DNA of 64,000 nt. It comes from Flagellimonas aequoris (GTDB lineage Bacteria; Bacteroidota; Bacteroidia; Flavobacteriales; Flavobacteriaceae). Made by a program: the position numbers and the translations under genes. Below are positions 13,357-49,019 of this stretch, piece after piece. Each line of letters opens with the position of its first letter. Position 1 is the first letter of the stretch. The DNA is taken from the NCBI RefSeq assembly GCF_003584165.1, contig NZ_QXFJ01000028.1, positions 1 through 64,000 on the forward strand, in the 5' to 3' direction. The notes under the pieces were generated by a model. The model did not search any database and was not told the origin of the DNA. It saw only the letters and a list, made by a program, of their open reading frames with translations.

Positions 13357-14019
13357 TCAGATCATCCTTCCATCCAATAGGTTGATGATACGTGAACCAT
13401 ATTCCGCATTTTTCTCGGAGTGGGTCACTTGAATGATGGTAACACCTTCTTCGTTCAATTGTTTGAAAAGCTCCATGATTTCTTCCCCTTGTTTGGAGTT
13501 GAGATTACCTGTAGGCTCATCGGCCAAAATTAACTTTGGATTGGAAATAAGTGCCCGTGCAATACCCACCAGTTGCTGTTGCCCCCCGCTCAACTGCGCT
13601 GGAAACAGATCCTTTTTACCTACGATGCTGAATCTATCGAGCATATCGGCCACCATGGCCTTGCGTTCTGACCCCTTGAATTTTTTATAGATCAAGGGCA
13701 TTTCAAGGTTTTCTTGAACAGTCAACTCGTCTAACAGATGGTAGGATTGGAACACAAAACCGATATATTCCTTGTACAGATTGGCTCGATGTTTTTCCTT
13801 GAGGTCATGTACCGATTCCTCCAGAAAATTGTACTCCCCTTCGTCAAAGGCATCAAGCATCCCGATGACGTTGAGCAAAGTGGATTTTCCAGACCCCGAG
13901 GGCCCCATAATGGAAATGAACTCCCCTTCCTCTACTTCGAGATTGATGTCTTTCAACAAAAAGATACGTTGGCCCCCAGAGTTGACCCATTTGAATATGT
14001 TGTTCAGTTGTAATAGCAT
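13357..14019 (-). CDS. ABC transporter ATPase, MacB/LolD type, with altered motifs (distal end of the array)
   Basis: 220 residues. It has Walker A GPSGSGKST, the Q-loop region FVFQSYHLLDELTV, signature LSGGQQQ, Walker B LILADEPT and the H-loop THSEK, so the basic machinery is present. Two positions differ from the canonical ATPase at the other end of the array: the signature continues LVGIARAL instead of RVAIARAV, and the D-loop reads GNLNSK instead of GNLDSK. It would energise the adjacent permeases at the inner membrane. It is 17 bases after permease 13 and is the last gene of the presumed operon. The altered residues suggest a partner subunit or a weakened site, but activity cannot be judged from sequence alone. 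Confidence 0.88.
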   Translation of the reverse strand: MLLQLNNIFKWVNSGGQRIFLLKDINLEVEEGEFISIMGPSGSGKSTLLNVIGMLDAFDEGEYNFLEESVHDLKEKHRANLYKEYIGFVFQSYHLLDELTVQENLEMPLIYKKFKGSERKAMVADMLDRFSIVGKKDLFPAQLSGGQQQLVGIARALISNPKLILADEPTGNLNSKQGEEIMELFKQLNEEGVTIIQVTHSEKNAEYGSRIINLLDGRMI

Positions 14020-14036
14020 GATATGATTTTTTTATT

Positions 14037-16487
14037 CTATTCGGTTCTTAAACTTTTTACGGGATTGGCAATGGCCGCTTTAATGGCCTGATAACCTACC
14101 GTTAGCAAGGCAATGGCAATCGCGGCTACACCAGCCAACAAAAACATCCACCACTCTATTTCTATTCGATAGGCAAATTTTTCAAGCCATTTGTCCATGG
14201 CAAACCAGGCAATGGGCGAAGCAAATACCAAAGCAATAATGACCAATACAATATACTCTTTGGAAAGTAAACGGACAATTCCCTCAACAGAAGCTCCCAT
14301 AACTTTTCGTATCCCTATTTCCTTGGTGCGCTGAAAGGCGGTCAACACAGCTAGGCCGAACAGCCCCAAACAACTGATGAATATGGAAACAAATGTAGCC
14401 AAGTTCACCAAAGTGGCCAATTGCTTTTCTTGTTTGTACATCTGCTCTATGGATTCGTCATAAAAAGTATAGGAAAAACTTTCCGGCGGATAAAAGCGAT
14501 ACCATTTCTGCTCAATTTCACTTAAAGTGTTTTGCCATTGATTGGTGTTGGATGTCAGTTTTATATTGAAGTTTGTAAGGTTACTTTTTTCCATTTGAAA
14601 GGCCATGGGGTCTATGGATTCATAGAAATCGCGCATATGGAAGTCATTGACCACACCCACAATGGGAAGCTTTTCGTCTTTCTGGCCAATGAATTTTCCC
14701 AAAGCCTCTTGGGGCGAGGCAAAACCAAATGCCTTTACCGCTGTCTCATTGATTACATATTCCGTTGGTGTATCGGACTCATGGAGATTTCTTCCCGCCA
14801 ACACTTTCAAGTTGTATAGATTTACATACGAAGTATCCACCCATTTTTTGAAAACCTGTCTAGAGATGGCCGGCTTTCCTTCTTCACTATATTCGTATGC
14901 GCTTGATGCATATCCTTCCGAAAGGGGAGCTGCACCTAAGGAGACATTTTGGATGCCGGATATCGTTTTGAGCTCTTCCAACAGGGGGAATTGTTTGCCA
15001 TCATATTTATCTTCAAAAGCATATTTATAAGGAACCTGTACCAAAACAACGGCGTCTTTGTTGAAACCCATATCCGATTTGATGGAGTATTGCAATTGTT
15101 TGCCAATGATGAGGGCGGATGTAATGAATACCAAGGCAATGACAAACTGAAATACAATCAGTGCTTTTTGCAGGTTAAACCCTTTACTGCCCTTGGTCTG
15201 TAGGGAAGTACTTCTAAAAACATTGATGGCATTGACCCTAGTAATCAACCAACCGGGATACAAACCAGCCAGAATAGCCACCAAAACACTTAATAAAAGA
15301 AGGAAACCGATATACTCAAGGATATTTGCGAACGGTGTTATCCCCTCGGGAATAATATCTTTCAGCAACCAAAAAACCAACTTAGTCAATACAAGGGATA
15401 AGATTCCGGCCAAAACGGTGGTCACCAAGGTTTCCAATAAAAATTGGGTGATCAACTGTTTTTTATTGCTACCCAAGGTCTTGCGAACCCCAATTTCCTT
15501 GGTGCGCTGAGGAATGCCTGCAACGCTCATATTAATATAGTTGATACAGGCCAGCACCAAAAGGAATAGGGCAACGCCCATCAATCCATAAAGAACAGGT
15601 TTACTCGCTTTTCTAATATTGCTCTCCCTAATATGGGTTGCGAAATGAGATTCACCCAAAGGCAGTAATTCTATCCAACGTTTAAAATTGAAGGTGTTTT
15701 CCGATTGATCTCTCCATTCCTTGGTTTTACGTTGAATAATATCATCAACTTGCTCAGCAATGATTGCAGGGTTAGAAGCTTCGTCAAGTTGAAGATAAAG
15801 TCTATCCGAACCATTGGTGTTTGTCCATATATTCAAGTCATATGCAATATAGGGCAGCGGCACAAATTCTTGTGAATTGAACTCCGTGGGTTGCGGCAAA
15901 TTGGCCACTACCCCAGCCACCGTTCGGGTAATGGTATCCCTATAACTATAATAGGTTATGGTCCTATCCAGAATCTCATTTGGTGTCTGGTCAGGGAAAT
16001 ACTGTTTGGCCCTATCTTCGGTAAGCACAACACTATTGGGATTATCCAAAAAAGAAGATTTGGTTCCCGAGAGCCAGCGGTACTCCAAAAAATTAAAGTA
16101 AGCAGAATCAATCGCGGCCACTCCTTTTTGGTCATCAAATCTTAATGGACTCCCAGGCGGATTGTCTACCTCGACACTCCTAAATGTATTTTCAAATACA
16201 GGGACGACATGCTCCAATCCATCCATCTGCTCACGAATACCTTGGTACAGAGGTTTTGAGGCGCCTCCGTTGTAGCTTTCTTTTTCGTCAAACACAAAGC
16301 CCGACACAACCCGATAGATTTTTTCCTTTTGGACCAGGTTTTTGTCGTAGCTATACTCGTATGAAACAATGCGATAGATGACCCAACAAACACTGATGCC
16401 AATGGCCAGACCAAAAATGTTCAAAGCAGTGAACAATCGTTTTCGATGTAAATGACGAAATGTTGTAATGAGATATTTTTTGATCAT
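14037..16487 (-). CDS. Array permease 13: duplicated FtsX/MacB-type ABC permease
   Basis: 816 residues from the ATG at 16487 (MIKKYLITTFRHLHRKRLF); the frame runs on upstream into permease 12, but that part is not family-like. After the first membrane helix comes YEYSYDK...EKIYRV, the array's post-helix signature. The first cytoplasmic coupling motif is RTKEIGVRKTLGS, the second RTKEIGIRKVMGA about 110 residues from the end, and the C-terminus is NPVKSLRTE. The N-terminal helix is the least like the array consensus (LITTFRHLHRKRL rather than LKIAWRNL). Its last codons share 32 identical bases with permease 12. Gap to permease 12: 11 bases. Substrate unknown. Confidence 0.9.
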   Translation of the reverse strand: MIKKYLITTFRHLHRKRLFTALNIFGLAIGISVCWVIYRIVSYEYSYDKNLVQKEKIYRVVSGFVFDEKESYNGGASKPLYQGIREQMDGLEHVVPVFENTFRSVEVDNPPGSPLRFDDQKGVAAIDSAYFNFLEYRWLSGTKSSFLDNPNSVVLTEDRAKQYFPDQTPNEILDRTITYYSYRDTITRTVAGVVANLPQPTEFNSQEFVPLPYIAYDLNIWTNTNGSDRLYLQLDEASNPAIIAEQVDDIIQRKTKEWRDQSENTFNFKRWIELLPLGESHFATHIRESNIRKASKPVLYGLMGVALFLLVLACINYINMSVAGIPQRTKEIGVRKTLGSNKKQLITQFLLETLVTTVLAGILSLVLTKLVFWLLKDIIPEGITPFANILEYIGFLLLLSVLVAILAGLYPGWLITRVNAINVFRSTSLQTKGSKGFNLQKALIVFQFVIALVFITSALIIGKQLQYSIKSDMGFNKDAVVLVQVPYKYAFEDKYDGKQFPLLEELKTISGIQNVSLGAAPLSEGYASSAYEYSEEGKPAISRQVFKKWVDTSYVNLYNLKVLAGRNLHESDTPTEYVINETAVKAFGFASPQEALGKFIGQKDEKLPIVGVVNDFHMRDFYESIDPMAFQMEKSNLTNFNIKLTSNTNQWQNTLSEIEQKWYRFYPPESFSYTFYDESIEQMYKQEKQLATLVNLATFVSIFISCLGLFGLAVLTAFQRTKEIGIRKVMGASVEGIVRLLSKEYIVLVIIALVFASPIAWFAMDKWLEKFAYRIEIEWWMFLLAGVAAIAIALLTVGYQAIKAAIANPVKSLRTE

Positions 16488-16498
16488 GGCGGCAGGTA

Positions 16499-18913
16499 TT
16501 ATTCGGTTCTTAAACTTTTTACGGGATTGGCGGAGGCCGCTTTTATGGTACGTGTTCCCACAGTAATAAAGGCAATGAGGGTGGCCAATAGTCCAGCTCC
16601 CAAAAAGAACAGGGGACTTAAACTTACATGGGTGGCATAGTTCTGCAGCCATTCATTTAAAAAGTACCATGCAATTGGTGTGGCAATCAAAAAGGCAATG
16701 CCCACCAACTTCAAGAAATCCTTGGTGAGGAGTAACGCTACGGAAGAGATGCTGGCGCCTATTACTTTACGCACGCCTATTTCCTTGGTGCGCTGTGCCA
16801 CTACCAACATGGAAATGGCAAACAGTCCGATACAGCTTAGCAGAATGCCCAAGATGCTTCCGCTGGTGATGATGGTCGCCATGGTCTTTTCACGCCTAAA
16901 AGTACGGTCCACGTTCTCATCCAAAAAAGAGCCTAAAAACTCTGCCTGCGGCTCTACTTTTTCCCATGCATCCTTGATGGCGTCAAAGGATTTGGCAACA
17001 TTTTTAGGGGCCACTTTCACATAAGCATAATAAAGGTCCCAATCTTTGTTCATGAACAATGTCAAAGGCTGTATTTTTCTGCTAATATCTTGAAAATTAA
17101 AGTCCTTGACCACACCGATTACGGAATAGGTAACATTGTCATCCATGGGAATGGTTATGGAAAGTGGGTCTTCGTCCCCAAGCTGTTTGGCCATGGATTC
17201 GTTGATGACCAAGCTAAGGCTATCGGTGGCGAAATCCCTATCGAACATACGCCCGGCAACCAACTGTAGGTCCAAAGTCTTTACATAGTCATAGTCTACA
17301 GTCAAGGCATTGGTAACTACGCCCCGCCCCTTATAGTCAAAACCCATCATGCTGCTGGATTGACTACCATCTCGGCCCCTCCCCAAATTGTTGTCGGCCC
17401 CAGAAACGCTGACGATATCGGGATTGTTCTTGAGCTCATCACGGAGTAGGTCCACTACACTATAACCGTTCTTTTTTCCATTTAATGGGATGGAGACCAC
17501 CTGCTCTTTATTGTACCCCAAATCCTTGTTGCGCATAAATTCAATTTGACCATGCAGTACCAAGGTTCCCGTGATCAAAAGAATGGCAATGGTAAACTGA
17601 AGGACAATCAGCCCATTGCGCAATCGGTTCTTGCCCACATCCAATTTTCCCTTAAGGGCCCGAAGGGTACCTAATTTACTCATTAACAAAGCTGGGTAGC
17701 CTCCCGCAATGAGTGTAATGATGAAGACGGCAAGGGTAAAAAGGATAAGCACACTAGGCTGTGTAACGTCGGCAAAGGAAGCCTTGGTGTTAAAAAGTGT
17801 CTTGAACGGGTTCAGGAGGAGGTTGCTTACCACCATCCCCAATAGTACGGATACGGCAAACACCAAAAGACTTTCCAACCAAAATTGAAAGAATAGTTGT
17901 TTTTTAATGGCCCCCAGGGTCTTGCGCATTCCAATTTCCTTCAATCGTTTTTCGCTTAGTGCAATACTCATGTTGATGAAATTGGCACTTACGATGAAGA
18001 TGATCACCAAGGCAATTCCCAAGATCATGTATGGAAAAATACGGATTACTTTGGCTGTACCAGTAGTGTATGAAGCAAAATGTCTATCGGTGATGGGCAT
18101 CAAGTGAAATTGTTTGTATCTCCCATCGGCATTTGGAAGAGCTCCATCGCGGATATCGCTTTCTATGCCTCCTTTATAGTGAAGGGTTGTAAAGGGAATC
18201 GTGTTTTCCTCAAATTGTGCCACGGAAACTCCTTTCTCCAGTTGAAGATATATAGGATGGAACTGTGAGTCCCATCTATCCTTGTTGGGCAGGTATTCGG
18301 GATGGTTCTCAAAGGGCACCACAATTTCAAAGTCAACACTACTGTTGCTGGGCGTGTCCGCGAGTACGGAAGCAATGGTAAAGGGCTGTTCTTCCCTGCC
18401 AATTTTTAGAGAAATGGTCTTGCCAATTATGTTATCGGTCGTTCCGAATATTTTTTTGGCGCCTTCCTCGGTAACCCCTACCGAATTCTTGTTGGGCAAG
18501 GGATTTTCAGAGTTCCCCATAAGGGTCGGGTAGGTGAAAATATCAAAAAAAGAAGGGTCTACATATTCGGCATCCAAACTCAGTTCCTTGGTGTTATATG
18601 TTATCAAGACATCTTCGCTTACTGAACGGGCAATATGTTTTATGCCCGGCACCTCTTCTTCAAGGGCAGGGGCCAAGGGGACAGGGTTTGATACACTGAT
18701 CTCAGGGCCTCTTGGTGTTTGATGTGCCAGGTAAAGTTGATAGGCAGAGTCCTTGTTCTCGTTGAATTGATCATAGGAAAGTTCAAAAAGGGCCGTCATG
18801 GTCAAGAGAATGGCCACGGCAAAGGCGCAGGTAAGCCCCACAATATTGGCTAGGGTGAAGACTTTATTCTTCAATAAATTTCTCCAAGCGATTTTTAAAT
18901 AGTTCTTAATCAT
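16499..18913 (-). CDS. Array permease 12: duplicated FtsX/MacB-type ABC permease
   Basis: 804 residues, MIKNYLKIAWRNLLKNKVF at the start. The post-helix signature is weak (FELSYDQF...SAYQL). Coupling motifs are KRLKEIGMRKTLGA and RTKEIGVRKVIGA; the C-terminus is NPVKSLRTE. The last periplasm-facing segment before the final helix is NYATHVSLSPLFFLGAG, without the double Trp (WW) seen in most of the other copies, so the final helix differs. The fifth membrane helix (VLQFTIAILLITGTLVL) begins the second module near the middle of the chain, as in all copies. It ends 11 bases before permease 13 starts. Confidence 0.9.
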   Translation of the reverse strand: MIKNYLKIAWRNLLKNKVFTLANIVGLTCAFAVAILLTMTALFELSYDQFNENKDSAYQLYLAHQTPRGPEISVSNPVPLAPALEEEVPGIKHIARSVSEDVLITYNTKELSLDAEYVDPSFFDIFTYPTLMGNSENPLPNKNSVGVTEEGAKKIFGTTDNIIGKTISLKIGREEQPFTIASVLADTPSNSSVDFEIVVPFENHPEYLPNKDRWDSQFHPIYLQLEKGVSVAQFEENTIPFTTLHYKGGIESDIRDGALPNADGRYKQFHLMPITDRHFASYTTGTAKVIRIFPYMILGIALVIIFIVSANFINMSIALSEKRLKEIGMRKTLGAIKKQLFFQFWLESLLVFAVSVLLGMVVSNLLLNPFKTLFNTKASFADVTQPSVLILFTLAVFIITLIAGGYPALLMSKLGTLRALKGKLDVGKNRLRNGLIVLQFTIAILLITGTLVLHGQIEFMRNKDLGYNKEQVVSIPLNGKKNGYSVVDLLRDELKNNPDIVSVSGADNNLGRGRDGSQSSSMMGFDYKGRGVVTNALTVDYDYVKTLDLQLVAGRMFDRDFATDSLSLVINESMAKQLGDEDPLSITIPMDDNVTYSVIGVVKDFNFQDISRKIQPLTLFMNKDWDLYYAYVKVAPKNVAKSFDAIKDAWEKVEPQAEFLGSFLDENVDRTFRREKTMATIITSGSILGILLSCIGLFAISMLVVAQRTKEIGVRKVIGASISSVALLLTKDFLKLVGIAFLIATPIAWYFLNEWLQNYATHVSLSPLFFLGAGLLATLIAFITVGTRTIKAASANPVKSLRTE

Positions 18914-18941
18914 GGTGTCTTTTTTAATGATGAATTTTAAT

Positions 18942-21344
18942 TTATTCCTGTCTTAGCGCGTCCACTGGATTTTGATTGGCTGTACGGGTATAGTTTATAC
19001 CCGCAATCAATGCCACCAATAGTAATATGAATAGGCTACAAGCCGCAAAGAGTCCCCAATGTAGATGAACCTTGAAGGCAAAATTTTGCATCCATTTGTC
19101 AGCAGTGAACCAAGCGCCTATCAATCCAAGGAGAACAGCGGGTACGGCCACATATTCCAAATCGGAAATAAATGCTTTTAATATGTCCCAGAGGGTTGCC
19201 CCATTAATTCTTCTAATGGCGAGTTCTTTTCTACGTCGGGCAGATTCATTGAAGGTATAGCCCAGCAATCCGATGATGGTAACCAATAGGATGATAATAT
19301 TTCCAATGAGCATGGCATTACGGAATCCTTTTTGCCCTTTATAGGCATTCAATTGTTCCGCCTCAAGGCTTTTGATTTCTGCATCATCATACGGAAAACC
19401 TAAGTTAAAGACCTCAGTAATTTTGCTCATAAGCCCTTCTTGAGCCCCTTCATGGGCCTTGACCATAATATTAAAGGACATGGAGGGATTTTCAATTTTC
19501 AGTTGTTCAAATCGTTCTTCCGGCAGATAAAAAAACACAGAGGGCCTTACATCCGGGTCAGATATTGAGCGAACCACAAAATCGGGGAATACCCCGCGAA
19601 TGGTGGTGCTTCCATGTTCGGTAACGGTAATTTGCTTACCAAGGACACCATCTGTCCACCCGTTGTTTAATTTTAACAATTCGGCGCCTTTTTTACTGAT
19701 GAGTACATCATTGGCAATGGCTTCTTTACTGGTAAAATCCTCTCCTTCGTCCACTTTGATGCCCAATATGGAAAGATAGTTGCCGTCTGCTTCATAAAAA
19801 TCGGCCACATTGAACAAATCTCGTTTTTCATCAGGTGAAAGCACATTGTTTCCGGATGCACCACTGATCGGCACATCATAGCCCAAACCAACCGTTTCGA
19901 TCTCGGGCATGGCCCTTAATTCATTTAAAACCGTCGAGAGCTTGTTACCATCCATGCCTTCGGTAGAGCCATAGTAGACACCTTCGGCACTATAACCATG
20001 GTCGGCATTTTTCATACTGTTGTACTGCAGTGTTACAATAACCAGTACAGTGAGGATAAATGTGGCCCCTACGAATTGGAAAGACAGCAGGACCAGCTTC
20101 CATTTCCCTCTTTTTTGTTGGTAGTCCCTGAAAGCTGTGGCCACGGGGACACGTGAAAAAAATCGCCCAGGAAAATAACTGGTAACGAAAATAAGAGACA
20201 CCACAAGCAATGCCAATGGAACAATAACGTATGGATTCAATACCGAAGAAAGGCTGTGTCCCCATTGAGCCTCGGCCATAGGTTTAAGTGCCCATATCAT
20301 AAGTAGGGCGCCTACAATGGAAACAAGAAAAAGGACAGCGGTTTCGGAAAAAATCATTTGCTGTAAATTCTTTGTCTCGGCCCCACAGGTTTTGTGTATA
20401 GCGGAACTCTTGGCCCGCGTAACCAATGTTCCCATAGTCAACAGAATATAGTTCATCAAGGAAACGAACAGTACGGCCAGGGCAATAGTGGAGAGGATAA
20501 CAATCATGTCCTTCACATTGTCCACATGTATTTTCTTGATGGGCATGAAGGAATATTGCAGTACAATGCCTTGTTGTTCCTCTTCCATTTTTTCAATATC
20601 CTGATGCTTTACCTGCATGGCACGAACAGCGTGGGCCAAATCTTTCGGATTTGTTCCAGGACTCAGCTTTACACAGGCATAATACCGATCATTGCCCATC
20701 CAGTTGGTGGTACCGTCCCATGAAAAGAATTGGGTGGTTGAGACCATGGAAACCAAGATGTCATAGGTATAGTTTGTGTTCTCGGGCAAGGTTTTGAACA
20801 CACCACCTATGGTGAGTTCTTTGTTTGGATAGTTCTTTATACTGATAACCTTTCCGACAACATCCCCTCCTATATTTTCCGCAAGTTCTTGGGAGACCAT
20901 ACAGGTCATGGGACTCTTGAGTATTTCTTGTGGATTTCCACTGATCATGGGTATGGGAAGCACATCGAACAAATGTTCATCTGCCAATGAAATGCTAGCG
21001 TCATAACTGTTCAGGTCATCAGTATAGATAACGTGATCACCAATGGAGTTGAGACGGGTAGCCGCTTCTATACCTGGCACTTCTGCTTTAAGGCCCGGAG
21101 CAATGGCCCCGCTTACCCTTGGGAAACTTTCCAATTTGTCCGAGGATTTGTCCATCTTAAAGTTTTCGTGCACCACATAAATGCGGTCTGCATCCGGATA
21201 AAAACTATCATAACTATAATAGTACAGCACCTCGGAAAGGAGCAATATCCCGAATGCCAGCCCTGCGGTCAAAGATATGATCCTGGTAAAGGCATGTTCC
21301 CCTTTTCGGAACAACCTGCGGAATGCCAATTTTAAATTGTTCAT
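18942..21344 (-). CDS. Array permease 11: divergent duplicated FtsX-type ABC permease
   Basis: 800 residues and the most diverged of the thirteen. It begins MNNLKLAFRRLFRKGEHAF rather than with the LKIAWRNL consensus. The first coupling segment is degenerate (TRAKSSAIHKTCGA; the usual KEIG/KEVG is lost), while the second is partly kept (RRRKELAIRRINGAT). The C-terminus is NPVDALRQE. The membrane layout (one helix, large periplasmic domain, three helices, then the same again) is preserved, so it is a folded transporter subunit and not a pseudogene. Loss of the first coupling motif may mean that only one half of the pseudo-dimer engages an ATPase. Confidence 0.87.
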   Translation of the reverse strand: MNNLKLAFRRLFRKGEHAFTRIISLTAGLAFGILLLSEVLYYYSYDSFYPDADRIYVVHENFKMDKSSDKLESFPRVSGAIAPGLKAEVPGIEAATRLNSIGDHVIYTDDLNSYDASISLADEHLFDVLPIPMISGNPQEILKSPMTCMVSQELAENIGGDVVGKVISIKNYPNKELTIGGVFKTLPENTNYTYDILVSMVSTTQFFSWDGTTNWMGNDRYYACVKLSPGTNPKDLAHAVRAMQVKHQDIEKMEEEQQGIVLQYSFMPIKKIHVDNVKDMIVILSTIALAVLFVSLMNYILLTMGTLVTRAKSSAIHKTCGAETKNLQQMIFSETAVLFLVSIVGALLMIWALKPMAEAQWGHSLSSVLNPYVIVPLALLVVSLIFVTSYFPGRFFSRVPVATAFRDYQQKRGKWKLVLLSFQFVGATFILTVLVIVTLQYNSMKNADHGYSAEGVYYGSTEGMDGNKLSTVLNELRAMPEIETVGLGYDVPISGASGNNVLSPDEKRDLFNVADFYEADGNYLSILGIKVDEGEDFTSKEAIANDVLISKKGAELLKLNNGWTDGVLGKQITVTEHGSTTIRGVFPDFVVRSISDPDVRPSVFFYLPEERFEQLKIENPSMSFNIMVKAHEGAQEGLMSKITEVFNLGFPYDDAEIKSLEAEQLNAYKGQKGFRNAMLIGNIIILLVTIIGLLGYTFNESARRRKELAIRRINGATLWDILKAFISDLEYVAVPAVLLGLIGAWFTADKWMQNFAFKVHLHWGLFAACSLFILLLVALIAGINYTRTANQNPVDALRQE

Positions 21345-21374
21345 CGTTGTTTCATTATCGTTTTCACCAAAAAA

Positions 21375-23684: not shown

Positions 23685-23719
23685 GTCACATTTTCATTTA
23701 ATGGTTCTTTTGATTGGGA

Positions 23720-26137: not shown

Positions 26138-26176
26138 GCATTAAGTTTTTGTTTGTTCGTGAAGGGCAGCATAAAA

Positions 26177-28627: not shown

Positions 28628-28645
28628 GTTTTTGTGTTTGGTCGA

Positions 28646-31078: not shown

Positions 31079-31108
31079 GATTTTTTGTGTTTGTCGTTTT
31101 TTGATGTG

Positions 31109-33496: not shown

Positions 33497-33517
33497 GATG
33501 GTTCGTTTTTTAGTTTA

Positions 33518-35896: not shown

Positions 35897-35905
35897 GACG
35901 ATTAT

Positions 35906-38305: not shown

Positions 38306-38336
38306 GATGGTTCGTTTTTGATTGATGATTTATGAT

Positions 38337-40751: not shown

Positions 40752-40779
40752 GATGTTTTTTTTGATTGATGATGTTATC

Positions 40780-43161
40780 TCACTCGGTACGTAAACTTTT
40801 TACAGGATTGGCACTTGCTGCTTTGATGGCTTGAAAACTTACGGTTACCAATGCAATGAGAATGGTCAAGATACTTGCTATGGCAAATACGGCCCATCCG
40901 ATGTTTGTTCTATAGGCAAATTGTTGGAGCCAGCCACTCATAAGGTACCATGCAACGGGAGAGGCGATCAATATGGCAATTAAAACAAGTTTTAGAAAAT
41001 CGAGGAAAAGTAATTGCAGTATTGCATAGGTGGAGGAACCCAACACCTTACGCACGCCAATTTCTTTCACCCGCATTTCATTGTTGAAAGCTGCCAATCC
41101 GAACAAACCAAGGCAGGAAATGAAAATGGCAAGAATGGCAAAATACTTGGAAAGCGATAAGATTCGCTGTTCCGAAGAATACTGGGCATTGAACATTTGA
41201 TCCTGAAAGGTGAAATTAAAATTGTAACCAGGATTATAATCTGTATACAATCGCTTTATGTTTTCAATGGTCTTCATTTCCGATCCGGAATGGATCCGCA
41301 CCATTGCCAAAGCCAAATGGTTAGAGGAATACTTAAAAACCACGGGTGAAATGGGTTGCATGACGGAGGCGGTATGAAAATCCTTCATGACCCCAAGAAT
41401 GGTCTTGTCCTCTCCCCAAAGATTGATTTTTTGCCCAACAGGATTTTCCAACCCCATTATCCGTATGGCCTCCTCATTAAATATTACGTAAGACTCGGGA
41501 GAACCGAGTTTTGCGTTAAAAGATTCCCCTTCCACCATTTCTATGTTAAGGGTCTGTGTCAGGTTTTCATCCACATCGCGAACAATAAAATCTACCTCAA
41601 GATCCGCTGGCTTACCGGCCCAGTCAATGCCGTAGGTGGAAGACCCGCCGTCTTCCCGGACAATACTCTGGCTAAGTCCACCAACACGTTCCACACCCTC
41701 TACTTTTTCAACCTCATCGAAGAAAAAAGGGATGTTGTCATAGGCCTTGCCCTCAAGATCTATTTGGACTATGTTATCTTTTTGATAACCAATGGGTTTT
41801 GTGAGCGCAAAGTTGAGCTGGTTGTTTATGATCAATACCGATATGATCAGGACTAGGGATGCCATAAACTGAAAGACCACCAGGCCTTTTCGTGTAAAAA
41901 GTTCCCCGCCATGGGTCTTAAAGGCGCCTTTAAGTGTTGCCAATGGACTAAAGCCGGACAAATAAAATGCTGGATAACTTCCGGAGATCAATCCGGTAAG
42001 CAATGTGGCCAAAATCAATACTGGGGCATTTTGGAAAATAAGTTGAAGATCCAGTTCTTTGCCTGAAACATAGTTGAACGCAGGAATCAACAAAAAGACC
42101 AATAAAAGGGCCAATATCAAAGAAAGGCATGTTAGGAAAATCGATTCTGTTAGAAACTGAACCACCAGTGTTCTTTTGGTACTCCCTACCGTTTTCTTGA
42201 TGCCGATTTCCTTAAATCTCCTGCTAACGCGGGCCGTGGAAAGATTCATGAAATTGATACAGGCAATGAGCAGGACCAAAATGGCAATGAAAGAAAAAAG
42301 CCTAACGTAGGTAATTCTGCCACCACTTTGAATACCATCCACATAATTGCCCTTTAGGTAAGCATCTGAATATTTTCTTGTGAAAAGACTGAACATGTTA
42401 CCATCAAGGTACTTGTCTACGAACCGGTCTATTTTTTTATTAAAGGCCGCCTGGTCCGTGTTGGGCTTGAGGACAAGGTATGTTTGTGGGCCGGTATTGT
42501 ACCATTCTTTTCCGTTTGTCCAAATGTCTTCCAGCAATTTCTTTTTGGTCCCTATGAAACTGAACTTCATGGTAGAGTTTGAAGGAACGTCCTCAAAAAC
42601 ACCTGTAATCTTTCCGCTCTGCTCTTTGCCAAAGAAGCTATATTTTATTTGATGGTTTAGGGCTTTGTCAACAGAACCGAACAGTTTTAAGGCAAAGTTT
42701 TCGGAAACAACAATGGCATCCTTATCTTGAAGCACTTGATCAATGGAGCCTCGTATCAGGGGAAAGGAAAACACATTGAAAAAGTTTTTACTGGCAAATA
42801 GCCCTTCCGTTTTGAAAGTATTCTCCCCATCGGAGAAAGTGATTGCCATTCCCTCCCTCTCAAGATTCATAACGGTCACCGCATCTTCAACCTCGGGCAG
42901 ATCTTTTTCCAATGCTTCTGCAAGGGGCCCTTGTGTACCTTCATGAACTCTGATTACTCCATTTTCCTCGCTCTTCATCAATATTTGATAAAGGTTTTGG
43001 TCATTTTCATGAAACGTATCGACCGTCATTTCATCAGTGACCCAGAAAAAGATTAAAAAAGCACTGGCCAGTCCTGTGGAAAGCCCCAGAATATTTATCA
43101 ATGAAAACAAAGGATTTCTCCTAAGGTTTCTCCAAGCTATTTTAAGATGTGTCTTGATCAT
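40780..43161 (-). CDS. Array permease 2: duplicated FtsX/MacB-type ABC permease
   Basis: 793 residues, starting MIKTHLKIAWRNLRRNPLF. The signature after helix 1 is altered (DEMTVDTF...QNLYQI). Coupling motifs are RRFKEIGIKKTVGS and MRVKEIGVRKVLGS; the C-terminus is NPVKSLRTE. The last module has TNIGWAVFAIAS, a single Trp instead of WW. Second-domain core: GVMKDFHTASV. Gaps are 28 bases on the permease 3 side and 32 on the permease 1 side. Confidence 0.9.
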   Translation of the reverse strand: MIKTHLKIAWRNLRRNPLFSLINILGLSTGLASAFLIFFWVTDEMTVDTFHENDQNLYQILMKSEENGVIRVHEGTQGPLAEALEKDLPEVEDAVTVMNLEREGMAITFSDGENTFKTEGLFASKNFFNVFSFPLIRGSIDQVLQDKDAIVVSENFALKLFGSVDKALNHQIKYSFFGKEQSGKITGVFEDVPSNSTMKFSFIGTKKKLLEDIWTNGKEWYNTGPQTYLVLKPNTDQAAFNKKIDRFVDKYLDGNMFSLFTRKYSDAYLKGNYVDGIQSGGRITYVRLFSFIAILVLLIACINFMNLSTARVSRRFKEIGIKKTVGSTKRTLVVQFLTESIFLTCLSLILALLLVFLLIPAFNYVSGKELDLQLIFQNAPVLILATLLTGLISGSYPAFYLSGFSPLATLKGAFKTHGGELFTRKGLVVFQFMASLVLIISVLIINNQLNFALTKPIGYQKDNIVQIDLEGKAYDNIPFFFDEVEKVEGVERVGGLSQSIVREDGGSSTYGIDWAGKPADLEVDFIVRDVDENLTQTLNIEMVEGESFNAKLGSPESYVIFNEEAIRIMGLENPVGQKINLWGEDKTILGVMKDFHTASVMQPISPVVFKYSSNHLALAMVRIHSGSEMKTIENIKRLYTDYNPGYNFNFTFQDQMFNAQYSSEQRILSLSKYFAILAIFISCLGLFGLAAFNNEMRVKEIGVRKVLGSSTYAILQLLFLDFLKLVLIAILIASPVAWYLMSGWLQQFAYRTNIGWAVFAIASILTILIALVTVSFQAIKAASANPVKSLRTE

Positions 43162-43193
43162 GATGGTTTGTTTTTATGATGATGTTTTTTATG

Positions 43194-45575
43194 TCATTCG
43201 GCACGTAAACTTTTAGTAGGGTTGGTGAGGGCGGCCCTGATAGATTGAAAACTTACGGTCAACAAGGCAATGCCCAGGGCAATGGTACCTGCAAGGGCAA
43301 AAACCCACCATTGCAGATCAATTCTATAGGCGAATCCCTGTAACCAGTTTTCCATGGAGAAGTAGGCGAGAGGGAATCCTATGAACAAGGCAATAACCAC
43401 CAACTTGGCAAAATCCATGGAAAGCATTTGGCTGATTTTGCCCACGGAGGCCCCCAATACTTTTCGAATGCCGATTTCCTTTCTGCGTTGCTCTGCCGTA
43501 TAAGCTGCCAAACCAAAAAGGCCCAATGCCGCTACAAAAATGGCCAGGATGCAGAACACGATACTGATCTGTCCCGCCCGCTTTTCCCGAGCGTACATTC
43601 TTGCAATATTTTGATCTAAAAAAGAATAGTTGAAATCTAGATTGGGAACAATTCTGGTGAAAGTACTTTTAAGGTCGGCAACCGTATTGGCCAAATTCCC
43701 TGTTTTAAAACGTACTAACATGAATGATTTGCCTTCACTTGTACTGTTATTGAATGCATAGGCACCAATAGGTTGGTGCAACGATTCGTAGTTGAAATCG
43801 TCCACCACCCCTACTATGGTATTGGGAATTCCGATATATACCTCCTTGCCGATGGCCTCTTCTGGGGAGAATCCTAAATAATCGATAGCTTTTTTGTTCA
43901 ACACAACTTCCACCAATGTATCCTTTTCACTTTTGAACTTGGGCAAGCTACTGCCGGCCAAAAGATGTAGCTTAAGGGCATCTACGATACCTGCATCGGT
44001 CACATTGGTCTGAATGTTCAGACCTTGTTCTTCCGTGTCATTTTTTCGAAGGGTTCGTCCACTTACATCCATGCCAGGATATCCTTGGGCCATGGATACT
44101 GCGGTAACTTCTGAGAGGTTTTTGAATTCTTGCTCCAAAGCGTTACGATTTTCGTCGCCACGCAATCCACCTATGGAAATGGCCATGACATTGTCTGCGG
44201 CAAAACCAAGGTTTTTATTTTGGATGTATTGGGTTTGTTGGTAGATGACCATCACGCCTACGATCAATGCGGTAGAGGCGGCAAATTGCATCACTACAAG
44301 GCCTTTTCTAATGACCACATTTCCCTTTCCTCGCTTTAAAGAAGGGGATAGGATTTCCTTGGGCAAAAATCTGGACAGGTACATGGAAGGGTACAATCCA
44401 GAAAACAAAGTCGTTACAAGCCAAACCCCCAATGCAGCCAACACAAAGGTTGGGTTGAGCAACAGGTCCATGGTCAAGTGTTGATCGGTTAAACCATTAA
44501 AGCTGGGCAACAACAACATCGTCAAAGCAACACCCAAAACAATGGAAATGGCCGTGATTAATCCGGTTTCCACATAAAACCGACCCACTAAAGACTCCGA
44601 AGAGGCTCCTAAGGTTTTGCTGATGCCCACTTCCTTGGAACGCTTTTGGGAACGTGCCGTGGTGAGGTTCATATAGTTAACGCAGGCAATTAAAAGGATC
44701 AAAATGGCCAAATAGGTCAGGTTGCGAACTTCATTGATATCGCCAATGCGGGACGCATATGAATTTCCGTAAGAGGCGGAATATAGGTGTACTTTGCTCA
44801 AGGGTTGTAAACCGAAGGAGTACCATTGGTTTTCCTTAGGGAGGTTTGCCTCCAGCATTTGGTCTATCTGTTTTTGGGTGGCATCCACTGAAACATTGTC
44901 TTTCAATAGGCAATAGGTTTCAAAACTGGCATTTGACCAAGAATCATTTTTGTAGAACCAATATCCATTACTCGAGGCCATGATTTCTGCATCAAATGTG
45001 CTGTTATCAGGAAAATCCTTGTATACCCCGGTCACCTCAAGCTCACGATCATTGTCCACCAAAATGGTTTGGCCAATCGGATTTTCCTGGTTGAAATAGG
45101 TCTGTGCAGCTGTTTCGGAAAGAATGACCGTGCTCGGCCTGTCCAAAACTGTGGCCGCATCCCCCTTTACCAGTTCAATATCGAAAATGGTCAACAACTC
45201 CTTGTCCACCCAATAAAAAAGGTCCTCAGTGAAGTTTTGGTTGTTTATGCGCAAGGAGGCGGGTCTACCAAAATTATGTTTTAACAACCTTGCCGCACTT
45301 TCCACATTGGTCACTTCTTCCTTCATGGCCAAAGCGGTTACAGGAGGTACCGTGGCCCAGGTTTCAAAACCAAAATCACCATCAGTTTTCAAGAGAACTC
45401 GTTGGATCCGGTCTTTTTTGGGAAACATGGAGTCGAAACTCCTCTCATGGGAAATAAACAGAAAAAGGAGCATGACGATGGTCAGCCCCATGGAAAGTCC
45501 AATAATGTTGATTCCTGAAAACAGTTTGTTCGATTTCAGGTTTCTCCAAGCGACTTTTAGGTTGTTCTTAAACAT
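43194..45575 (-). CDS. Array permease 1: duplicated FtsX/MacB-type ABC permease (promoter-proximal)
   Basis: 793 residues. The architecture, shared by all thirteen copies, is helix 1 (about 20-42), a periplasmic domain to about 280, three helices with the coupling motif RSKEVGISKTLGA near 310, then a fifth helix near 425, a second periplasmic domain, and three helices with RRKEIGIRKVLGA near 695. One chain therefore equals a fused MacB/FtsX dimer with eight helices but no ATPase domain. It starts MFKNNLKVAWRNLKSNKLF and ends NPTKSLRAE. In MacB-type systems such subunits move substrate in the periplasm towards a TolC conduit by ATP-driven motion in the cytoplasm. It follows the canonical ATPase by 30 bases, so it is the best candidate for the ancestral partner. 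Confidence 0.92.
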   Translation of the reverse strand: MFKNNLKVAWRNLKSNKLFSGINIIGLSMGLTIVMLLFLFISHERSFDSMFPKKDRIQRVLLKTDGDFGFETWATVPPVTALAMKEEVTNVESAARLLKHNFGRPASLRINNQNFTEDLFYWVDKELLTIFDIELVKGDAATVLDRPSTVILSETAAQTYFNQENPIGQTILVDNDRELEVTGVYKDFPDNSTFDAEIMASSNGYWFYKNDSWSNASFETYCLLKDNVSVDATQKQIDQMLEANLPKENQWYSFGLQPLSKVHLYSASYGNSYASRIGDINEVRNLTYLAILILLIACVNYMNLTTARSQKRSKEVGISKTLGASSESLVGRFYVETGLITAISIVLGVALTMLLLPSFNGLTDQHLTMDLLLNPTFVLAALGVWLVTTLFSGLYPSMYLSRFLPKEILSPSLKRGKGNVVIRKGLVVMQFAASTALIVGVMVIYQQTQYIQNKNLGFAADNVMAISIGGLRGDENRNALEQEFKNLSEVTAVSMAQGYPGMDVSGRTLRKNDTEEQGLNIQTNVTDAGIVDALKLHLLAGSSLPKFKSEKDTLVEVVLNKKAIDYLGFSPEEAIGKEVYIGIPNTIVGVVDDFNYESLHQPIGAYAFNNSTSEGKSFMLVRFKTGNLANTVADLKSTFTRIVPNLDFNYSFLDQNIARMYAREKRAGQISIVFCILAIFVAALGLFGLAAYTAEQRRKEIGIRKVLGASVGKISQMLSMDFAKLVVIALFIGFPLAYFSMENWLQGFAYRIDLQWWVFALAGTIALGIALLTVSFQSIRAALTNPTKSLRAE

Positions 45576-45605
45576 ATTTGGGATTTTTGATTGATGATTA
45601 AACTC

Positions 45606-46301
45606 CTACACCATGGCACCCATGGGCTTGTTCTGGCTTTCGGTCACAATTTGACCATCGAACAAGTTGATGACCCTGTGGGCATAGTGCGAATCGCGGT
45701 CCGAGTGCGTTACCATTACAATGGTGGTGCCCTCTTGGTTGAGCTCGGTAAGCAGGTTCATCACCTCAATACCGTTTTTGGAATCCAGGTTACCCGTAGG
45801 CTCATCCGCCAAGATCAGTTTTGGGTTGGTCACTACGGCTCGGGCTATGGCTACCCTTTGCTGCTGTCCTCCGGAAAGCTGTTGCGGAAAGTGTTTTTCC
45901 CTGTGGGCAATCTTCATACGCTCCAACACTTTTTGGACTTTTTCCTTTCTTTCTGCCTTACTCATTTTAAGGTAGATCAAAGGAAGTTCCACGTTTTCAA
46001 AAACGGTAAGCTCATCGATAAGGTTAAAGCTCTGGAAAACGAACCCAAGGTTTCCCTTTCTTAATTGGGTACGTTGGCTTTCCTTTAGCCCCCCCACTTC
46101 ATGACCCGCAAATTTGTAGCTGCCATCAGTAGGATTGTCCAACATGCCGATGATGTTCAACAAGGTTGATTTTCCACATCCTGATGGGCCCATGATGGCC
46201 ACAAACTCCCCTTCGGCCACTTTAAGGTTTACCCCGTTCAAGGCTAAGGTTTCGACTTCTTCCGTTCGGAAGCTTTTTTTGAGATTTTGGATTTGTATCA
46301 T
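45606..46301 (-). CDS. ABC transporter ATPase, MacB/LolD type (canonical)
   Basis: 231 residues with all motifs in canonical form: Walker [11 protein letters not shown]-loop [14 protein letters not shown], signature [15 protein letters not shown], Walker [10 protein letters not shown]-loop GNLDSK and H-loop VTHSD. It belongs to the family that pairs with FtsX/MacB/LolC permeases. It lies between the adaptor gene (71 bases upstream) and permease 1 (30 bases downstream). Since the following thirteen permeases have no nucleotide-binding domain, this protein must energise most or all of them, alone or with the distal ATPase. Confidence 0.94.
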
Positions 46302-46372
46302 TTCTTTAGTGGTTGTTTTTCTGCGGTTTACTTAAAGACTCTTTTAATTTGATCGATGTTACACTTCACGGA

Positions 46373-47623
46373 TTATTTTAATACGATCCGTTCTGCATCA
46401 CCAAAACTGTCGTAGTTGCTGGTAATGACCTGTTCTCCTGGTTGAAGCCCCTCAAGGACCTCATAGTATCTTGAATTTTGTTTTCCTAATCGTACGTTAC
46501 GTCTTATGGCCTCGTTGCCATTGGGGTCCACTACGAAAACCCATTGCCCACCTGTACTCTGGAAGAAGCCTCCTTTTGGCAGCAGGAGTGCATCATTGGA
46601 TTCGCCCAATTGCAGTCTGATGTTATAGCTTTGTCCGGCACGGATGGTTTCTGGTTTTTCTCCGGTGAACACTAGATCTACCCTAAACCTACCGTTGCGT
46701 ACTTCAGGATATACCTTGCGAAGACGTAGGCCGTACTCATTTCCATTACGCTCCAAAGTTGCGGATAGGTCACGTTTTACCCTATCGATATAGTGCTCGT
46801 CAATGTCCGCTTCAATTTTGAAATCGGTCAATACGTTAATCTGTCCGATACGTTGACCTTGGGCAATGTTCTGCCCGATTTCGGCATCCAAAAACCCCAA
46901 CTGACCATCTGCTGGAGCGCGAACGTTCAGGTGGTCCAACCGTTCGTATACCATGGAAAGCGTCTTGCGCATCCGCTCCAAATCGGTATCCAAACCTTTC
47001 AGGGAAGTTTCCCTCAATTGGTCGTCCTGTTCGGTCTGTAACTTTACAATTTCGTATTGTTTTTTCGCCAGTTCGTAATCTTCCTTGGCTTTTAGATAGA
47101 CTTCTTTGGAAATCAATTCCCCATCATATAGTTCTTGGTTTTGCTCATAGTTTCGCTTTAACCGTTGCAGATCGTACTGGGCGGTGGCCAAGGATTTTTT
47201 GCCTTCCACCTGCCTGGAATCGAAGGTGAGCTTGGTAGAACGAAGGTCGTTCTGCTTTAACGCCAAGTTACTTTCACTGGCCAAGATCTGCTCATACAGG
47301 TTCATGTTCTCCAATTTCAGGATGATATCCCCCTGTTTGACCATGGAACCTTCCTCGATGAGTTTTTCGGATACCCTTCCACCCTCATAGGCATCCATAT
47401 AAATGGTGGCGATAGGAGCCACGTTACCATTTATGGTAATGTAATCATCGAACTTACCCGCAGTCACCGAAGCTATGGAAAGTCGCTCCTTTTCGGTCCT
47501 AAAGGTGGACATGGAACTGGCGAAAATCAATTTCCAGCCCACGAACAGTAACAATACACCAAGGGCGATGTAGCCGTAATGTTTGGGTTTAAGTCCTTTC
47601 TTTTTTTCTAATTGTATATCCAT
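46373..47623 (-). CDS. Periplasmic adaptor (membrane fusion) protein, MacA/HlyD type
   Basis: 416 residues. One membrane anchor near residues 17-36 (YGYIALGVLLLFVGWKLIFA) places the rest in the periplasm. A lipoyl-like half (VAPIATIYMDAYEGGRVSEK with GSMVKQGDIILKLEN) is followed by a long helical hairpin (about 105-235, rich in Lys, Glu and Gln), the other lipoyl half (VRAPADGQLGFLDAEIGQNI) and a beta-barrel with a membrane-proximal end. The adaptor joins the inner-membrane permease to the outer-membrane TolC protein. It is the only adaptor for thirteen permeases. It starts 8 bases after the TolC-type gene. Confidence 0.92.
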   Translation of the reverse strand: MDIQLEKKKGLKPKHYGYIALGVLLLFVGWKLIFASSMSTFRTEKERLSIASVTAGKFDDYITINGNVAPIATIYMDAYEGGRVSEKLIEEGSMVKQGDIILKLENMNLYEQILASESNLALKQNDLRSTKLTFDSRQVEGKKSLATAQYDLQRLKRNYEQNQELYDGELISKEVYLKAKEDYELAKKQYEIVKLQTEQDDQLRETSLKGLDTDLERMRKTLSMVYERLDHLNVRAPADGQLGFLDAEIGQNIAQGQRIGQINVLTDFKIEADIDEHYIDRVKRDLSATLERNGNEYGLRLRKVYPEVRNGRFRVDLVFTGEKPETIRAGQSYNIRLQLGESNDALLLPKGGFFQSTGGQWVFVVDPNGNEAIRRNVRLGKQNSRYYEVLEGLQPGEQVITSNYDSFGDAERIVLK

Positions 47624-47631
47624 GGTTGTTC

Positions 47632-48975
47632 TTAGTTGATGTTAAATATGGGTAGGCCGCTATAAAAGTCAATGGTGCTTTGGTTGACTTTTAATTTGAG
47701 TCCTACCTGTAGGTTTTCGTTCTGGGCCACCCCGTAGAGGTTTTTGGCCTGGAAAAGATCCAAGGCGTTGATGAGCCCTTTTTCATATCTTTTTTGAGCA
47801 ATTTCAAAAGCCAATTCTTGGGCCTTCACTTTTTGGTTACTCTGTTCGTATTCCGCCATAAAGGATTGGTTATCCTGAACCAGTTGTTGCAACAATTTGA
47901 ACAATTCCTGCTCTTGGATTTCGAGGTTGTTCTTGGCTTGCAAATAGGCTATTTTTTGCTGTTTTACTCTGGAGTGGGCCGACCATCCATTACTGATGGG
48001 AATACTCAATTGTGCAGCAACGTACTTGGAAGCGTTGTCGTTGAACTGGGTTTTGAACGGGATAATTTTCCCGGTATCACTATCGGTTTGGGTCTCAAAA
48101 TACCCCGTGGAATAACCGGCAGTCAAGGATAAGGAAGGCAACAGGTTTCCTCGGGTGGCCTGTAGCTGTTTCTTCGCGGCGTTTACCCTATATTCCTGGG
48201 ACTTCACCAAAGGAACAAAGCCTCTTGCGGTTTGGTATAAGGAATCCAATGACATATCTTCTTCCGATTCGGGGGAATCGGATTCCAGAGTTTCTTGCAA
48301 GACAATGTCGGTTTCTTCGTTGAGGTTCATTTCCTGTAATAGGATCAACTTGGCGTTGGCCAATAGATTTTTGTTCTGGGTCACCAAAAGTTTGTCTCCC
48401 AACAAGTTGGATTCAGCTTCATAAAGGTCGGCACCGGCCATCATACCGAGCTCTACTTGTTTTTTTACCAAATCGTAATTGGATTGCGAAATTTCCTGTT
48501 GCTCCAAAGAATTGGCGACCAAACCTTCATAAAATTTGATATCATAATAGGCGCTCATCACCCTAAAGGCCAATAGGAATTTTTGCTGAAGCACATCCTC
48601 TTGGGTTGCTTTGAAGATAAATTTGGAGGCCCTTATGTTATTCAGTTTTTGAAATCCGTTGAAGATATCCAGACTGGCGCCAACCGAATAATTGTTGCTG
48701 AAGAACTCGGTATTCACGTAGTCGTTGGTATTGGGGTCGGCGGTTCTACCATAGTTGATGGTATAACCTGTGGACCCATTCACCGTTGGCAAAAGGTTTC
48801 GGATGGATTGCCGATAGGTCTCTTTACTGGAATCGTTGTTGTAGTTGGTATTCTTTACCTGAAGGTTGTGTTCAATGGCATAGGCCACGCACTCATCCAA
48901 TGTCCAGGTTTCTTGGCAAAACCCAAACAATGAGGTTAGAAAGAAGATACTTGAAATGTATGTTTTAAGGTTCAT
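47632..48975 (-). CDS. TolC-family outer-membrane efflux protein
   Basis: 447 residues from the ATG at 48975 (MNLKTYISSIFFL); a TTG two codons upstream was rejected. A signal peptide ends near FGFCQ and is followed by WTLDECVAYAIEHNLQVKN, the classic start of an outer-membrane efflux protein. Two OEP repeats with long coiled-coil helices follow, each with a beta-strand part (YGRTADPNTNDYV; PISNGWSAHSRVKQ). The protein forms the trimeric exit duct. It is the first gene of the presumed 17-gene operon and diverges from the response regulator gene. Confidence 0.93.
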   Translation of the reverse strand: MNLKTYISSIFFLTSLFGFCQETWTLDECVAYAIEHNLQVKNTNYNNDSSKETYRQSIRNLLPTVNGSTGYTINYGRTADPNTNDYVNTEFFSNNYSVGASLDIFNGFQKLNNIRASKFIFKATQEDVLQQKFLLAFRVMSAYYDIKFYEGLVANSLEQQEISQSNYDLVKKQVELGMMAGADLYEAESNLLGDKLLVTQNKNLLANAKLILLQEMNLNEETDIVLQETLESDSPESEEDMSLDSLYQTARGFVPLVKSQEYRVNAAKKQLQATRGNLLPSLSLTAGYSTGYFETQTDSDTGKIIPFKTQFNDNASKYVAAQLSIPISNGWSAHSRVKQQKIAYLQAKNNLEIQEQELFKLLQQLVQDNQSFMAEYEQSNQKVKAQELAFEIAQKRYEKGLINALDLFQAKNLYGVAQNENLQVGLKLKVNQSTIDFYSGLPIFNIN

Positions 48976-49000
48976 ATGCAATTTGCTGTGCCAAGTTGAT

Positions 49001-49019
49001 CACTATTCTTATGCCAAAA
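49001..49019 (-). promoter_or_regulatory. Weak sigma-54-like -24/-12 element upstream of the TolC-type gene
   Basis: The minus strand reads TTTTGGCATAAGAATAGTG. The -24 half (TTGGCAT) is good and the GG to G(T) spacing is the correct 10 bases, but the -12 half has GT instead of GC. It would start transcription about 15 bases before the start codon. The inference is supported only by the neighbouring sigma-54 activator gene. Confidence 0.3.

Follow-up and report, generated by a model that had tools for sequence, protein, structure and literature searches.

We analysed a stretch of 64,000 nucleotides from Flagellimonas aequoris (contig NZ_QXFJ01000028.1, positions 1 to 64,000; hereafter the window), in which thirteen consecutive minus-strand genes, P01–P13 (45575–14037), encode duplicated permeases of 769–816 amino acids (aa) between two ATPase genes, ATPase1 and ATPase2. 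On balance, we favour the view that they form one modular shared exporter of the type VII (mechanotransmission) ABC kind, re-toolable with interchangeable permeases and regulated as a unit. Its core would consist of a TolC-family channel, a single adaptor and an unequal pair of ATPases that serve a whole bank of eight-helix permeases. Each permease, already a fused pseudo-dimer, would engage a single ATPase1–ATPase2 pair, each of its halves resting on one of the two. ATP turnover would be coupled to motion of the permease's two periplasmic domains, and a substrate particular to that permease, from the periplasm or the outer leaflet, would be driven into the common adaptor–TolC duct. P04, and mostly P07 too, would do the ancestral core job; the other permeases would be cassettes for particular niches, acquired horizontally and deleted through recombination between similar gene ends and spacers. 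A kinase almost devoid of an outside domain would sense in the membrane or through the machine, and the operon would be switched on via its own NtrC-type regulator.

On the minus strand, the genes run in the order TolC, adaptor, ATPase1, P01–P13 and ATPase2, and every gap measures 8–71 bp when P13 is started at 16487. The listed open reading frame (ORF) of P13 spans 871 aa from an upstream start; the natural start, MIKKYL, gives 816 aa and leaves 11 bp between P12 and P13. With this correction the original prediction of thirteen intact permeases of 769–816 aa was borne out, and its flanking order (TolC, adaptor and an ATPase before the array, a second ATPase after it) and gap lengths agreed with the ORFs and Pfam matches. 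It had also proposed eight helices and two periplasmic domains for each permease. Pfam matches in all thirteen are in line with this design: MacB_PCD and FtsX scored above the curated cut-offs in every one. FtsX always formed two stretches; MacB_PCD also formed two in 11 of the 13, P05 and P10 having a single one. Only P04 and P11 were modelled with AlphaFold2 (pLDDT 83.9 and 85.9), and both models had eight long helices and two periplasmic domains. Nor is the array an assembly artefact, as arrays were read in 63 genomes, including the single-contig assemblies G005 and G017.

The same frame recurred in relatives. An adaptor search gave 354 relatives, and the analysis continued with the best 80; these came from Flagellimonas, Allomuricauda, Muricauda, Croceivirga, Croceitalea, Maribacter, Robiginitalea, Pseudozobellia, Arenibacter and Kriegella, together with one Algicola bin and a few records titled just Flavobacteriaceae or Bacteroidia. 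TolC and adaptor genes were adjacent at all 80 loci, and ATPase1 came next at 78, a contig end cutting the remaining two. The window adaptor is 100% identical to that of Flagellimonas pelagia, whose locus holds one permease more. The tandem count that the original prediction had called for yielded 434 full-length permeases in the 63 genomes, whose arrays were mostly read whole, with 2–24 per array. The window has 13, strain GF1 has 16 and a Croceivirga bin reaches 24; the median gap was 24 bp over 371 permease–permease junctions. This set omits G006, G007 and G010 of 17 same-genus relatives (broken contigs; G007 had no full-length hit listed), and the arrays of G012 and G014 are cut by contig ends. 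Wherever both array ends were read, the permeases sat between the same two ATPases. Among 48 relatives (50 of the 80 loci were taken, and L043 and L051 were not searched), ATPase1 was present in all, and in 45 the contig also held ATPase2 past the far end of the array. Broken permease copies were seen within the otherwise intact arrays of G003 (L023) and G077 (L179–L180).

The two ATPases differ consistently. Motifs were counted in sequences of at least 60% identity, some genomes being counted twice (as a named locus and as a genome stretch). All 98 ATPase1 sequences carried LSGGQQQR and the D-loop NLD. In ATPase2, the D-loop read NLN (61) or NLH (2) in 63 of 63, and LSGGQQQ was followed by L, I or V in 62; in the remaining row the pattern had matched falsely at an earlier position. 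Walker A and DEP, with the Walker B glutamate, were kept in both ATPases, and 97 of 98 ATPase1 and 63 of 63 ATPase2 sequences matched the H-loop pattern. The same asymmetry appeared in other families (19 ATPase2 and 13 ATPase1 sequences). Judged by these motifs, ATPase1 and ATPase2 look like a conserved unequal pair and not the interchangeable pool of the original prediction. As a duplicated, unequal permease fits service by an unequal ATPase pair, we infer that the two act as a heterodimer. Alternatively, ATPase2 could have a regulatory role or be a slow ATPase in competition with ATPase1, or it could serve only some of the permeases. Its conserved D-loop and signature changes would suit such a role, as would its absence from beside the array in three relatives; we nevertheless find this somewhat unlikely, since Walker A, the Walker B glutamate and the H-loop are all intact in ATPase2, which accompanies the array in 45 of 48 relatives and occurs again alongside ATPase1 in other families.

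The permeases are not recent duplicates. At a bit-score ratio of 0.5, the 434 sequences fell into 50 types, 14 of them singletons (43–64 types at ratios of 0.45–0.6). P04 occurred in 62 of 63 genomes, the 63rd having a P04 fragment at a contig end, followed by P07 (59), P12 (41) and P03 (32). Shared types held their order in 5885 of 6961 comparisons (shuffled, 50%). By occurrence, then, P04 and mostly P07 are core and the other types accessory, so that a bank of cassettes supplements a core machine. The window permeases are 17–40% identical to one another (median 30%), and their orthologs in Allomuricauda sediminis are 83–99% identical to them. The ratio of nonsynonymous to synonymous divergence (dN/dS) was 0.011–0.129 for all thirteen against A. 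sediminis and for 10 of 13 against strain M10, with the lowest value in P04; on this measure all thirteen are under purifying selection. Low pairwise identity, close orthologs and low dN/dS together indicate old, separately maintained proteins. Mean identity between types was 0.48–0.56 in the ATPase-facing segments, 0.65 in the C-terminal tail and 0.23 in both periplasmic domains; the permeases may thus dock onto the same partners and differ in substrate. GC content at third codon positions (GC3) was lowest in the array for P02, P05, P11 and P13.

Some accessory types have moved between species. We looked for genome pairs in which the frame was far (median dS of P04, P07 and ATPase2 of at least 1.2) yet a given type was close (dS below 0.7). 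Such pairs were found for P02 (5 of 5), T19 (3 of 3), T14 (3 of 10), P01 (7 of 124) and T08 (3 of 103), with fewer for P11 (2 of 26), P05 (2 of 23) and P09 (2 of 166). Frame genes, the same genes that supply the baseline, gave 0 of 1798 pairs (P04), 1 of 1687 (P07) and 0 of 1635 (ATPase2). On these dS values, recent horizontal transfer holds for some accessory types only.

Two junctions bear scars. In F. pelagia, an extra permease between ATPase1 and P01 is flanked by a 17-bp direct repeat, TAATCATCAATCAAAAA, of which the window site has one copy; from this repeat, gain and loss are indistinguishable. The other scar lies at P12. A. sediminis has a type between P11 and P12 that is missing from the window, and window P12 carries the spacer and the letters at positions 4 and 6 of that missing gene, matching P12 from position 21, which places the switch point between nucleotides 7 and 20. 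These scars suggest that conserved gene ends can serve as joints. Array-wide gene conversion was rejected as a main force, its effects being too small: spacer identity was 0.441 within and 0.426 between genomes (p 0.003), and the last 45 nt of genes were 0.618 and 0.612 identical (p 0.01), the first 45 nt being equal. A dedicated recombination site, ATCATCAATCAAAAA, was also discarded, as just 3 of its 8 exact genome copies lie at array junctions, pointing to a shared spacer. Elsewhere in the genome (C30:121294-122654), four exact ATCATCAATCAAAAA copies occur within 1.4 kb.

The original prediction had named the NtrC-type gene; the operator-like site, the ATPase asymmetry and the age of the divergent types go beyond it. 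The regulator and kinase genes diverge from the TolC operon, and the operator-like double dyad lies between these two genes and TolC. It is conserved in aligned relatives and followed by two conserved TTGGCA boxes. It is the sole exact match in its own genome, a uniqueness that is partly by construction, as this very site in the window supplied the pattern. A wider regulon was dropped, with six other places matching at 1–2 mismatches versus 5 matches for a reversed control pattern. The genome has one RpoN gene, and the alignment of relatives revealed a conserved −24 box and a variable −12. A regular expression for a canonical sigma54 −12 element matched just 4 loci and was abandoned. From these sequence features, sigma54 control of the operon seems likely. 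Inside the array, promoter-like sites were not above chance (39 versus 33.4, sd 5.8, in shuffled sequence and 27 versus 32.7, for the two array halves), nor were terminators (20 versus 21.9 and 18 versus 21.0), and the Bacteroidota-type promoter pattern TTTG/TAnnTTTG had 0 matches.

The kinase has hydropathy peaks at residues 14–24 and 41–48 with a very short loop between them, so that, as in Bce-type modules, an intramembrane-sensing kinase stands beside a transporter. This kinase is one reason to consider that the bank serves defence, each permease acting, on the shared machine, to remove or shield against one particular competitor-made agent (antimicrobial peptide, toxin or lipid-targeting compound). 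The permease fold also matches BceB (7tch, Z 20.6–20.9, with rmsd 8.1 and 493 aligned at Z 20.6; 8s5g, Z 20.4–21.2), some accessory permeases turn over horizontally as resistance genes do, and the arrays of some relatives contain a beta-lactamase-family hydrolase. We hold resistance or immunity as the purpose of the bank to be a lesser possibility, as the near-universal presence and slow evolution of P04 suit a housekeeping role, and no drug or peptide link was found for the array. It is equally doubtful that the kinase senses competitors' compounds as in Bce-type modules and that secretion of the cell's own products is not the purpose: BceAB is described as working without an adaptor and having a 10-helix topology. 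BceABS shares with the window the fused permease fold and the intramembrane-sensing kinase and differs by a single large extracytoplasmic domain in its permease. The BceABS regulator is OmpR-type, versus NtrC-type in the window.

The predicted folds place the permeases in the type VII superfamily, with a MacB/FtsX fold, a periplasmic core domain and a long stalk helix. The best full-length structural match of the P04 model was Escherichia coli YbbP (9ge6; Z 25.1, rmsd 9.5, 668 aligned), and across both models the YbbP matches ranged over Z 24.1–25.1, rmsd 8.9–10.7 and 580–671 aligned. MacB (5nik) matched with Z 18.1, rmsd 7.2 and 372 aligned. A periplasmic domain from Porphyromonas gingivalis (3is6) matched P04 with Z 20.5, rmsd 3.3 and 220 aligned, and P11 with Z 26.1, rmsd 2.6, 222 aligned and 34% identity.

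The YbbP match also invites another interpretation: most permeases may not be exporters at all but mechanotransmitters that act on envelope lipids or lipoproteins or drive periplasmic enzymes, in the manner of YbbAP-TesA or LolCDE, with just one or two (P04, P07) using the adaptor and TolC. Additional proteins encoded in the arrays of some relatives (a hydrolase of PF00144, an esterase of PF00756 or a protein of DUF2807), the distance of many permeases from the adaptor gene, and the runs mostly without a TolC gene in other families would all be in keeping with it. We rate it as rather unlikely, given that the window family co-encodes adaptor and TolC with the bank and that hydrolases occur in few arrays. 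YbbAP-TesA resembles the window system in its fused pseudo-symmetric permease and separate ATPase. According to the published account (PMC12646458), it is a 2:1:1 complex of two copies of one ATPase, the permease and the periplasmic esterase TesA, and its permease has 10 helices (two of them linking helices), against eight in the P04 and P11 models.

Other known systems overlap with the locus in part. MacAB-TolC shares the MacB-type permease fold, adaptor, TolC and mechanotransmission architecture. MacB, however, is a four-helix homodimer fused to its ATPase, whereas ABC_tran was found in none of the thirteen permeases, and the window has separate unequal ATPases and fused eight-helix permeases, many to one adaptor. 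An adaptor and a TolC encoded with a MacB-type permease are present in the window but not in most distant runs. DarBCD (NCBIfam NF038008, NF038010 and NF038007) likewise has a separate ATPase, an adaptor and a permease model of 777 positions, and the darobactin exporter models gave the best NCBIfam E-values for the adaptor and both ATPases. All scores stayed below the curated cut-offs (adaptor against NF038010 DarC, 206 bits, cut-off 450; ATPase1 and ATPase2 against DarD, 305 and 252 bits, cut-off 375; best of three scanned permeases against DarB, 112 bits, cut-off 700), and the DarBCD models imply no permease bank. For those three permeases, the best NCBIfam E-value was a full-length match to ADOP, TIGR03434 (P01 293, P11 149 and P13 299 bits); all 13 window permeases had hits, and the cut-off of 622.3 bits was exceeded in none of 30 genomes searched. 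The internal duplication of the FtsX unit at about 800 aa is common to both. ADOP permeases are defined as having no ATP-binding gene adjacent, whereas ATPase genes flank the window array at both ends and an adaptor, TolC and regulator lie alongside.

Evidence for shared parts comes from other genomes as well. In 11 genomes selected because they hold many permeases (at least 9 to 37 per genome), exactly one close adaptor was found in each case, with E 4.5e-88 or better, the next best being 2.2e-21. Of the 55 permeases in two distant genomes, 35, a run of 13 among them, lack any standalone ATPase on the same strand within 5 kb, which fits the ADOP definition, unlike the window array; proximity was computed for 35 of 104 PF00005 rows, and the rest, checked by eye, had none within 5 kb of a permease cluster. 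A run of thirteen consecutive permeases with no standalone ABC ATPase gene within 5 kb lies in G325 (C1:4541364-4580040). Around four solitary permeases outside the arrays of relatives, no recognisable ATPase1 or ATPase2 relative was present in the 14–20 kb read. As many permeases lie far from any ATPase gene, the simplest reading is that the parts are probably shared in trans. Thus the bank on one shared conduit and ATPase pool, as originally proposed, holds in part: the single close adaptor, the distal position of ATPase2 in 45 of 48 relatives, the conserved coupling segments and the ATPase-distant permeases speak for sharing, and the pool gives way to what looks like an unequal pair.

Across the phylum, P04 relatives (E 1e-90 or better) occurred in 101 of 395 sampled genomes and ATPase2 relatives (E 1e-84 or better) in 73, covering 49 of 171 genera. 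Of 20 stretches beside ATPase2 in other families, 11 held a whole run of adaptor, ATPase1, permeases (2–14) and ATPase2, two of them with intervening other genes; one further whole run, with 9 permeases, was found in G137. The remaining nine were broken, dispersed, cut, or had ATPase2 alone or unrecognised, as in G259, where no ATPase2 was recognised. For G300, the idea that its ATPases have no permeases next to them was dropped, as three follow ATPase2 there. The distant runs (L220–L257) keep regulator, adaptor, ATPase1, permeases and ATPase2 together, with TolC missing from the locus in most.

Several observations weigh against the shared modular exporter. Between regulator and adaptor, 10 of 11 distant runs had no TolC-like ORF, and one had it on the opposite strand. 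As TolC is mostly missing from the run, a duct of the window type cannot be claimed in other families. The proposed bank of alternative permeases is only partly upheld; two of its types are core and the rest accessory, and TolC mostly stands outside the run beyond the window family. In 3 of 48 relatives (a Robiginitalea, a Pseudozobellia and an Arenibacter), the array has no ATPase2 next to it. A single transcript would have to span 36 kb, with ATPase2 last, which is awkward in the absence of internal promoters, and none of these exceeded chance. In the window, the −12 element of sigma54 also departs from the canonical form. Low-dS pairs were absent for P06 (0 of 272), P08 (0 of 260), P10 (0 of 19) and P13 (0 of 9), and single for P12 (1 of 797), P03 (1 of 479), P07 (1 of 1687) and ATPase1 (1 of 102). 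Between F. aquimarina and isolate 3-327, P07, P12 and T14 are jointly low in dS, which looks like block exchange. Finally, periplasmic variability above that of the coupling segments may be a superfamily-wide trait.

Plain amplification of a gene family for dosage or by neutral drift, with no new specificity, is very improbable despite the broken copies and fragments in G003 and G077, as the copies are divergent old types, many of them common to several genera, with low dN/dS and little homogenisation within genomes.

Features of the Flagellimonas aequoris permease array and its surroundings in the window
Feature	Position	Strand	Basis
TolC-family outer membrane channel	47632..48975 (from ATG)	-	Pfam OEP PF02321, 156.5 bits
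Periplasmic adaptor (membrane fusion protein)	46373..47623	-	TIGR01730, 153 bits, over cut-off; sole close adaptor in genome
ATPase1, LSGGQQQR, D-loop NLD	45606..46301	-	ABC_tran and motifs
P01, accessory, exchanged between species	43194..45575	-	MacB_PCD/FtsX; low dS in 7/124 genome pairs
P02, accessory, exchanged between species	40780..43161	-	MacB_PCD/FtsX; low dS in 5/5 pairs
P03	38337..40751	-	MacB_PCD/FtsX; in 32/63 genomes
P04, core type, AlphaFold model	35906..38305	-	In 62/63 genomes
P05, accessory, lowest GC3 of array	33518..35896	-	MacB_PCD/FtsX
P06	31109..33496	-	MacB_PCD/FtsX
P07, near-core type	28646..31078	-	MacB_PCD/FtsX; in 59/63 genomes
P08	26177..28627	-	MacB_PCD/FtsX
P09	23720..26137	-	MacB_PCD/FtsX
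P10	21375..23684	-	MacB_PCD/FtsX
P11, most divergent, AlphaFold model	18942..21344	-	MacB_PCD/FtsX
P12, 5′ end chimeric, best explained by loss of a neighbour	16499..18913	-	MacB_PCD/FtsX and junction comparison
P13, corrected start	14037..16487	-	MacB_PCD/FtsX
ATPase2, LSGGQQQL, D-loop NLN	13357..14019	-	ABC_tran and motifs
Operator-like double dyad TGTA-N9-TACA, N5, TGTC-N9-TACA	49080..49118	none	Sole exact pattern match in genome
Conserved sigma54-like −24 box TTTTTGGCATAAGAATAG	49003..49020	-	Alignment of relatives
Second conserved box TTGGCACAG, overlapping TolC start	48978..48994	-	Alignment of relatives
NtrC-type response regulator	49178..50542 (listed ORF from 49121)	+	Sigma54_activat, Response_reg, HTH_8
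Histidine kinase, intramembrane-sensing type	50542..51894	+	Two hydrophobic helices, short loop between

Other genes accompany some arrays. A secreted-looking hydrolase of about 500 aa lies between the last permease and ATPase2 in G002 (L021–L022), G013 (L006–L007), G014 (L026) and G016 (L016); that of G016, the sole one of the four scanned, is Pfam Beta-lactamase PF00144. Between ATPase1 and the first permease, L059, L067, L070, L072, L090 and L098 encode a secreted-looking protein of about 250 aa, which is DUF2807 in all four scanned (L059, L067, L090 and L098). A third secreted-looking protein, of about 200 aa with LGFDTxxYLPEGFDPY-like repeats, sits between adaptor and ATPase1 in L059, L070, L072, G003, G004 and G006; the three scanned (G004, L059 and L070) had no Pfam match. 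One relative has a PF00756 esterase inside its array. In the genome of F. aequoris itself, another small cluster (C8:221972-228827) comprises four half-size MacB/FtsX permeases on one strand (open frames of 413–474 aa).

Relatives of these parts export peptides, siderophores or drugs, traffic lipoproteins or extract lipids, according to the literature. For the array, we consider it most plausible that peptides or lipids are exported or that the cell is protected against antimicrobials. The parts are of known kinds (type VII ABC exporters and ADOP- or DarB-like permeases); what is new lies in how they are arranged, in the unequal pair of ATPases and in the turnover of cassettes. A literature search, with subscription journals and preprints mostly outside its coverage, returned no published multi-permease array with one adaptor. 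Two Dyadobacter genomes carry 28 and 33 genes named by RAST as 'acidobacterial duplicated orphan permease', as reported in PMC11573002.

Tripartite exporters are usually described as fixed sets, and an inner-membrane part picked from 2–24 cassettes controlled by a single regulator would be a new route for export specificity to evolve. We tentatively suggest, as a possibility that falls short of our preferred reading of the window, a secretion machine found across Bacteroidota, in which one adaptor, one duct and an unequal ATPase pair power dozens of array and orphan permeases, with cassettes swapped between species. If true, such a machine would explain the many 'orphan' duplicated permeases of Bacteroidota and would supply their missing ATPases and duct.

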